From Candidatus Paceibacterota bacterium (lineage in GTDB: Bacteria; Actinomycetota; Actinomycetes; Nanopelagicales; Nanopelagicaceae), in the NCBI GenBank assembly GCA_035530615.1, contig DATKUL010000002.1, positions 434,001-498,000 on the forward strand: a DNA stretch of 64,000 nucleotides, read 5' to 3'. Positions 21,081 through 23,062 of the stretch are shown piece after piece (within the stretch, counting starts at the first letter, position 1; each line of letters opens with the position of its first letter). The notes under the pieces are model-generated. The model saw only the letters and a program-made list of their open reading frames with translations. It was not told the DNA's origin and made no database searches. A program made the position numbers and the translations under genes.

Positions 21081-21128
21081 AAACGCAATGGGCAACTCAA
21101 AGCGGACTTGGACAAGGGAGAAGAAGAG

Positions 21129-21848
21129 ATGACTACGCAAGCACCAATCATCCTTGCAATTGACACCCCCGATTTGGATATTGCCAAGTCATGGATCGAA
21201 GTTTCACATGGCTATGTCTCAGGTTACAAATTGGGGCTTGAGTTCTTCACGAAATTCGGCAAAGAAGGTGTCCGCACATTGCAGGATGCGACCGATGCCG
21301 AACTTTTTCTCGACTTAAAATTTCATGACATTCCCAATACAGTTGCTTCGGCGACGAAGCAGATCGTGGATCTCAATCCGCGTTTTCTTACAATCCATGC
21401 ATCGGGTGGTCGAGCGATGATCGCGGCGGCAGTTGCAGCCGCGCCAAATATCGAGATAACGGCAGTCACAATCCTCACCTCCTTAGGGAGTGAGGATTTG
21501 AAGGAAATCGGCTTCAAGGAAGATCCAGTCGTGAGTGCGGTCCGACTTGCGAAACTTGCAAAGGAAGCAGGAGCCACGGCAATCGTCTGCTCTCCGCAGG
21601 AGATTTCCGCGATACGTGCGGCAATCGGTCCACATATGACGATTATTACGCCAGGGGTACGTCTAGCTACTGAGACTCGCGACGACCAACAGCGAACCAT
21701 GGATCCTAAGAGCGCCATAGTGGCCGGAGCTAGTTATTTGGTTATCGGGCGACCCATCACTCAATACTGGTCTCAGGGTTTTCAGGCCATGCGCGAGCGA
21801 ACCGCGGCTTTAGCGAACGAACTCAGTGAATTCATACGGACAAGGTAG
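21129..21848 (+). CDS. pyrF: Orotidine 5'-phosphate decarboxylase
   Basis: Decarboxylates OMP to UMP. The catalytic segment is LFLDLKFHDIPNT, with TIHASGGRAM, ITPGVR and YLVIGRPIT later. ATG 21129 chosen for the purine-rich GGGAGAAGAAGAG upstream; an in-frame ATG at 21108 would add MDKGEEE. 239 residues. Its TAG stop is also the first half of a -10 hexamer for the next gene. Confidence 0.95.
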   Translation: MTTQAPIILAIDTPDLDIAKSWIEVSHGYVSGYKLGLEFFTKFGKEGVRTLQDATDAELFLDLKFHDIPNTVASATKQIVDLNPRFLTIHASGGRAMIAAAVAAAPNIEITAVTILTSLGSEDLKEIGFKEDPVVSAVRLAKLAKEAGATAIVCSPQEISAIRAAIGPHMTIITPGVRLATETRDDQQRTMDPKSAIVAGASYLVIGRPITQYWSQGFQAMRERTAALANELSEFIRTR

Positions 21849-21857: not shown

Positions 21858-22736
21858 ATGCCGGTTCCACCAATTTTGACGCCGGAGCAGCGAGCCACTG
21901 CCTTATTAAAGGCAACTGCCGCCCGCCGTTCCCGAGCTGCCATAAAGTTAAAGGTAAAGAACGGTGAGTTGAGTGTTGGAGACGTCTTAAATTTTGCAAA
22001 AGACGATCAAGCTGTAGGGAAAATGCGTGTAAGTGAGTTGTTGGAATCTCTACCCGGGGTGGGGAAGATCCGCGCCAAGTTGATTATGGAACGACTGACC
22101 ATTTCTCCAACCAGGCGAATACAAGGATTAGGCAAACATCAGAGACAGGACCTGTTGGATGAATTTCATCCGTCAGAACCAGGGCTTGCCAGCCAGAGAG
22201 GTCGGTTAATCGTTCTCTCGGGTCCTGGAGGGGTCGGGAAAAGTACTGTCGCCATGCGGCTCCGAGAAGTATCAGATTTCTGGGTAAGCGTCTCTGCAAC
22301 AACTCGCGCCTCCAGAATCTCCGAAGAGAACGGTGTGGATTATTTCTTTCTCACCGAGGAAGAATTCGATCGAGAGGTCTCCAACGATAAATTTCTCGAG
22401 TGGGCAGAGTTTGCGGGCGCACGATATGGGACCCCTCGGGAGGGTGTCGAAAGGGCCCTTGCACAGGGACGCAATGTCCTGCTCGAGATTGAAATTGAGG
22501 GTGCGCGCCAAGTGCGGGCTCATAGCAAGGAGGCAATTCTGGTCTTCCTCGAACCTCCGAGCTGGGAGCACCTGGTGGCCAGACTAGTGGGACGCGGCTC
22601 TGATTCACCTGAGAGACGGGCTCATCGCCTCGAACTGGCGCAGTACGAACTGGCCCTATCTAAGGAATTCGACGTTGTGATCGTAAATGACCAGGTCGAG
22701 AAAGTAGTCGAGGCACTGGTAGCCTTAGCCTCCTAA
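21858..22736 (+). CDS. gmk: Fused integration host factor (mIHF) - guanylate kinase
   Basis: 292 residues in one frame. Residues 1 to about 105 match actinobacterial mIHF: PPILTPEQRATALLKATAARR, then LLESLPGVGKIRAKLIMERL with the helix-turn-helix-like DNA-contact loop, and RRIQGLGKHQ. Residues from about 114 are guanylate kinase: P-loop VLSGPGGVGKSTV, SATTR, GVDYFFL, EWAEFAGARYGTP, ILVFLEPP. Other actinobacteria have separate adjacent mihF and gmk genes. No stop, and no good internal start, lies between the two domains. GMK phosphorylates GMP to GDP; mIHF binds and bends DNA. Confidence 0.92.
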   Translation: MPVPPILTPEQRATALLKATAARRSRAAIKLKVKNGELSVGDVLNFAKDDQAVGKMRVSELLESLPGVGKIRAKLIMERLTISPTRRIQGLGKHQRQDLLDEFHPSEPGLASQRGRLIVLSGPGGVGKSTVAMRLREVSDFWVSVSATTRASRISEENGVDYFFLTEEEFDREVSNDKFLEWAEFAGARYGTPREGVERALAQGRNVLLEIEIEGARQVRAHSKEAILVFLEPPSWEHLVARLVGRGSDSPERRAHRLELAQYELALSKEFDVVIVNDQVEKVVEALVALAS

Positions 22737-22813: not shown

Positions 22814-23062
22814 ATGGACGGCATTACAAATCCACCGATTGACGAACTTCTGGATAAGAGTGGCTCGAAGTACAGCCTGGTGCTCTATGCAGCAAAACGC
22901 GCCCGCCAGATCAACGCTTATTACTCTCAGTTGGGCGAAGGCCTGCTTGAATATGTTGGTCCGCTGGTTGAGACACACGTTCATGAAAAGCCTCTCTCCA
23001 TTGCTCTGCGCGAGATCAACGAAGGTCTTTTGACGATCGAGAATCTCGAACCAACCGCTTAG
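22814..23062 (+). CDS. rpoZ: RNA polymerase omega subunit
   Basis: Small RNA polymerase assembly subunit, 82 residues. [38 protein letters not shown] and the C-terminal [17 protein letters not shown] match actinobacterial omega. ATG with AAAGGGG upstream; a TAGCGT hexamer at 22794-22799 could be the -10. It follows gmk as usual in bacteria. Confidence 0.95.

Follow-up and report, generated by a model that had tools for sequence, protein, structure and literature searches.

Within the window, the 64,000-nucleotide stretch of Nanopelagicaceae DNA analysed here, an open reading frame of 292 amino acids occupies positions 21858-22736 of the forward strand, from an ATG at 21858 to a TAA that ends at 22736, and is open throughout. 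Profile searches identified two near-complete domains in its product, an actinobacterial integration host factor (mIHF) at residues 5-103 and a guanylate kinase (Gmk) at residues 115-290. The Pfam matches were H2TH_5 at residues 33-103 (3e-28) and Guanylate_kin at residues 115-287 (4e-44). Against the NCBIfam model NF041260 (actino_IHF), residues 5-103 scored 130.9 bits (2e-38; cut-off 60) and covered model positions 3-101 of 102. Residues 115-290 scored 211.8 bits (6e-63; cut-off 160.45) against TIGR03263 (guanyl_kin), covering model positions 1-177 of 180. A preliminary description of this DNA had placed an mIHF joined in frame to a complete guanylate kinase at this locus. The list of open reading frames, Pfam and NCBIfam agree with its coordinates, frame and domain content. 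Both domains score well above the curated cut-offs, and the join is a true in-frame fusion. The mIHF part contains the N-terminal helix and an S13-like H2TH fold with the motifs LPGVGK and RRIQGLG. The kinase part carries the P-loop SGPGGVGKST, the GMP-binding residues TTR..R..E..G..Y and the lid RGSDSPERR. About 10 loosely conserved residues lie between them.

Features of the mIHF-gmk locus, in window coordinates
Feature	Position	Strand	Basis or remark
pyrF	21108..21848	+	ORF list; upstream neighbour, stop 9 bases ahead of the fusion start
mIHF domain, residues 1-103	21858..22166	+	Pfam H2TH_5, NCBIfam actino_IHF, alignment to 4itq/6tob, structure model
In-frame TTG, the sole possible internal start ahead of the kinase fold	22155..22157	+	Not conserved among relatives
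Linker, residues 104-113 (HPSEPGLASQ)	22167..22196	+	Variable (codon divergence), disordered (pLDDT)
Guanylate kinase domain, residues 114-292	22197..22733	+	TIGR03263 above cut-off, site residues invariant
rpoZ (RNA polymerase omega)	22814..23062	+	ORF list; downstream neighbour, order as in M. tuberculosis mihF-gmk-rpoZ (PMC6155035)

The genes around the fusion, named from their sequence and from established gene order, run carA, carB, pyrK, pyrD, pyrF, mIHF-gmk, rpoZ, coaBC, metK, priA, def and fmt, which is the usual actinobacterial setting. pyrF lies upstream in Microbacterium and Collinsella records as well, so that the operon order is conserved. The genome itself comprises 2.16 Mb in three contigs and is rated 100% complete. 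A second mihF or gmk, for which a search had been proposed, was not found in it by profile searches; the single copy of each is the fusion locus. Besides these, the genome has one HU gene and two RelA/SpoT-domain genes of the (p)ppGpp synthetase type (frames of 726 and 339 amino acids), and Lsr2 was not detected in it. It thus combines a small set of nucleoid proteins with an alarmone system. Since HU is present once and Lsr2 went undetected, this organism may have only two classical nucleoid proteins, of which the fused mIHF would be one.

In order to determine how widespread the fusion is, we used a sample of 296 Nanopelagicaceae genomes, a family that corresponds to the freshwater acI bacteria and includes Ca. 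Planktophila. The same full-length open frame was present in all 20 sampled congeners. One representative was read for each of the 17 genera, and four genomes for g17. Eleven genera had the fused gene (g1, g2, g3, g4, g6, g7, g8, g11, g13, g15 and g16) and six had separate genes (g5, g9, g10, g12, g14 and g17). The join is therefore conserved among relatives and is not peculiar; it is the state of most genera of the family. A frameshift in the assembly had been named as the observation that would dispose of the fusion. We give almost no credence to an assembly or sequencing error that joined two genes, because the same open frame is shared by independent assemblies, from the 20 congeners and from over 80 further relatives, among them the closed genomes of Ca. 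Planktophila lacus and Ca. P. versatilis. Some of the metagenome-assembled genomes with the fused gene are titled 'Bifidobacterium breve' and 'Streptomycetaceae bacterium' (L049, L062, L072, L075; L056, L058, L066, L068). These names are probably wrong, since the genomes carry fusions of the Nanopelagicaceae type.

The fusion was also sought in 395 genomes sampled across the class. Most other actinobacterial families have mihF and gmk as separate, adjacent genes, as the preliminary description had stated, but that statement fails for two groups. In family f36 a full-length fused frame was present in 19 of 20 genomes, and the remaining one (G451) has a contig-end fragment that spans both domains. 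A 298-residue fused protein from Microbacterium sp. NIBRBAC000506063 (WP_223172673.1) is 74% identical to members of f36, which identifies this family as the Microbacteriaceae; a named metagenome-assembled genome (L084) clusters with the Microbacteriaceae fusions in the tree. The third lineage is genus g103 of family f34 (G475 and G506). Outside the class, no stop-free fusion was found among the matches listed for 145 genomes of the phylum. Several first matches that appeared full-length, for instance in family f4 and in most phylum-level cases, contained an internal stop and were discarded as separate in-frame neighbours.

A tree of 92 sequences requires four or more changes between the separate and the fused state, and a tree with all fusions in a single clade was rejected (p = 2e-7). 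Because the one-clade tree is rejected and nearly all other families have separate genes, there were at least three gains; the fusion thus arose independently in at least two actinobacterial lineages besides Nanopelagicaceae. The fusion was perhaps lost in genera g10 and g17: the quick tree favours such a reversal, but a tree that keeps the fused members together is not rejected (p = 0.20). Where the genes are separate, the distance from the mihF stop to the Gmk domain has a median of 8 bases in Nanopelagicaceae and 28 in others. The Collinsella genes are 0 bases apart, and the neighbourhood is conserved beyond the class. Separate mihF and gmk keep this order, and gaps of 0-50 bases are common, so the loss of one stop codon or a minor indel would be enough to fuse them.

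A few loci depart from this arrangement in other ways. In L145, L148, L150, L160, L161, L163, L164, L168, L144 and L147 gmk was present and mIHF was not detected in the surrounding bases. These come from small-genome actinobacteria (genera g67 and g114 of f34, family f5 and one f33 genome), in which mIHF may have been lost or relocated. Two records labelled as plasmids carry the core operon, as pyrF-gmk-rpoZ-metK in Microbacterium (L194, NZ_CP072877.1) and as pyrF-mihF-gmk-omega subunit in Collinsella (L195, NZ_OY725717.1), and are probably pieces of chromosome. The annotation of the Microbacterium record splits pyrF into two frames and shows a pair of Fic-type genes between gmk and rpoZ.

The position-specific divergence between the window and 12 congeners was used as a measure of selection, since dN/dS (YN00) was unusable for most pairs, presumably owing to saturation. 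Divergence at codon positions 1/2/3 was 0.36/0.20/0.66 in the mIHF domain and 0.25/0.11/0.60 in the Gmk domain, compared with 0.59/0.56/0.71 in the linker. This pattern indicates purifying selection on both domains and a linker that is free to vary. Among 32 relatives, the P-loop SGPGGVGKS and the GMP-site residues TTR, R153, E156 and Y162 are invariant. As the sole Gmk of a genome rated complete, the kinase domain is predicted to convert GMP and ATP to GDP and ADP. The solved structures of sIHF (4itq) and mIHF (6tob) align with the mIHF part over its entire length, and the net charge of the domain has a median of +8 in fused proteins versus +7 to +9 in separate ones. Its sequence, net charge and fold all fit the predicted function of binding and bending DNA. 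In the Microbacteriaceae (f36 loci L121-L132, L139 and L140) the mIHF domain is far more diverged than the kinase domain, with a median score of 65 bits versus 142 in Nanopelagicaceae, from which the model was mainly built. This divergence is a possible sign of altered DNA binding, and mIHF activity is less certain in that family.

The structure model (mean pLDDT 88, pTM 0.62) shows both domains with confidence, with pLDDT of about 78-95 in the mIHF helices and below 50 at residues 105-111, which are predicted to be disordered. It fits two modules whose mutual orientation is not fixed, joined by a flexible linker. A short, variable and disordered linker would also suit a protease that cuts the complete chain there and so restores the two ancestral proteins. 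We consider this very unlikely, since 32 relatives have no conserved motif in the linker and since a fusion undone in this way would change nothing, which sits badly with its retention in many genera.

Two products could alternatively arise by initiation within the gene, so that the full-length fusion and a free Gmk coexist. The preliminary description had found no candidate start between the domains other than a weak TTG, and the sequence agrees: the codon lies within the last mIHF helix, eight bases downstream of a weak AGGA. Because this TTG and its weak ribosome-binding site are near the junction, some free Gmk could be made. The same region, 23 codons from -30 to -8 before the P-loop, was scanned in 81 distinct fused relatives from Nanopelagicaceae. 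An ATG or GTG occurs in 37 of them, 10 have no start at all, and no start position is common to all 81. A start 16 codons ahead of the P-loop, mostly ATG, is found in 26 of the 81, mainly in one Planktophila subclade, and may be left over from the former gmk start. Only one of these Planktophila codons has a Shine-Dalgarno-like match upstream. With neither position nor codon conserved across the family, a conserved internal start was dismissed and internal initiation, at this TTG or at other codons in the relatives, seems to us unlikely, although the AGGA and the retention of one start in part of the family speak for it. A single chain is the simplest reading of starts that are unconserved and in some relatives absent.

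We therefore believe that the gene probably encodes one bifunctional chain of about 32 kDa, in which a short flexible linker connects an mIHF domain to a working guanylate kinase. Its ancestors would have been head-to-tail neighbours, often 0-50 bases apart, of which mihF lost its stop or underwent a small indel. The mIHF domain would bind and bend DNA while tethered to a working Gmk, and both essential activities would be kept, as neither has a second copy. In the likeliest mode the domains would act as two independent modules on one chain at a fixed 1:1 ratio, and part of the cell's Gmk would be held on the nucleoid. In M. tuberculosis, mIHF is essential and ranks in the top ten proteins by abundance (PMC6155035); given that abundance, it is surprising that the cell would make one enzyme domain for every mIHF domain. 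Deletion of mihF in M. tuberculosis has polar effects on gmk and rpoZ (PMC6155035). In M. smegmatis, mIHF remains functional when fused to EGFP, mNeonGreen, PAmCherry or HaloTag (PMC10028186), which shows that a large partner on mIHF is tolerated. Together, the polarity and this tolerance argue that the natural fusion is viable.

The coupling itself might have been selected, in that DNA-bound mIHF regulates or places Gmk, or that nucleotides alter the binding of mIHF to DNA, linking GTP supply to the state of the nucleoid. Such a role is suggested by at least three independent fusions that joined the two genes in identical order, by a neighbourhood conserved as far as Collinsella and by the (p)ppGpp synthetase-type genes of this genome. 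Against it, closely spaced genes fuse easily by accident, the two genes are separate in several genera of Nanopelagicaceae (perhaps with a single reversal, p = 0.20), in some lineages no mIHF was detected beside gmk, and the flexible linker of the model gives no sign of a fixed domain arrangement. On balance we hold selected coupling to be improbable. (p)ppGpp acts as an inhibitor of GMK in several phyla (PMC6783271), while regulation of the M. tuberculosis enzyme is reported, in work cited in PMC6892785, to be unlike that in other Gram-positives; the tie to (p)ppGpp metabolism drawn in the preliminary description is a weak inference. We are doubtful of two more specific proposals: that mIHF puts GDP and GTP production on the chromosome by making Gmk a nucleoid-bound enzyme, or that, should the Gmk domains form dimers as they do in other bacteria, the protein is a bivalent DNA bridger that follows guanine nucleotide or alarmone levels.

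On this preferred reading, chromosome architecture and guanine nucleotide synthesis, two essential functions that are normally separate, are combined on a single polypeptide in Microbacteriaceae and in freshwater bacteria that rank among the most abundant. That the fusion arose repeatedly and independently suggests that the two functions do not have to be kept apart. It also hints at a functional connection, a question directly testable in cultured Microbacteriaceae. Databases record the fused proteins only as 'guanylate kinase', and actino_IHF is a domain-type family at NCBI. Surveys of nucleoid proteins may wrongly score mIHF as absent from these organisms, because that label hides the only mIHF they have. 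We found no description of an mIHF-Gmk fusion in the literature, subscription journals aside.

Both domains are already known, and the fused architecture is present in databases under the name guanylate kinase. The mIHF and sIHF proteins (6tob, 4itq) match residues 3-103 over the whole family length, with the same motifs and basic charge, but they are normally free proteins of 105-107 amino acids, whereas the window protein bears a C-terminal enzyme. Bacterial Gmk (TIGR03263; M. tuberculosis 1znw, S. aureus 4qrh) has the same complete domain with its P-loop, GMP-binding and lid residues; it normally stands alone, at about 190-230 amino acids, and is not preceded by a DNA-binding domain. The M. 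tuberculosis mihF-gmk-rpoZ operon (Rv1388 and its neighbours) has the same gene order with separate proteins. The Microbacteriaceae fusion (e.g. WP_223172673.1) shares the domains, their order, a short linker and annotation as guanylate kinase only, but differs in its independent origin and its more diverged mIHF domain.
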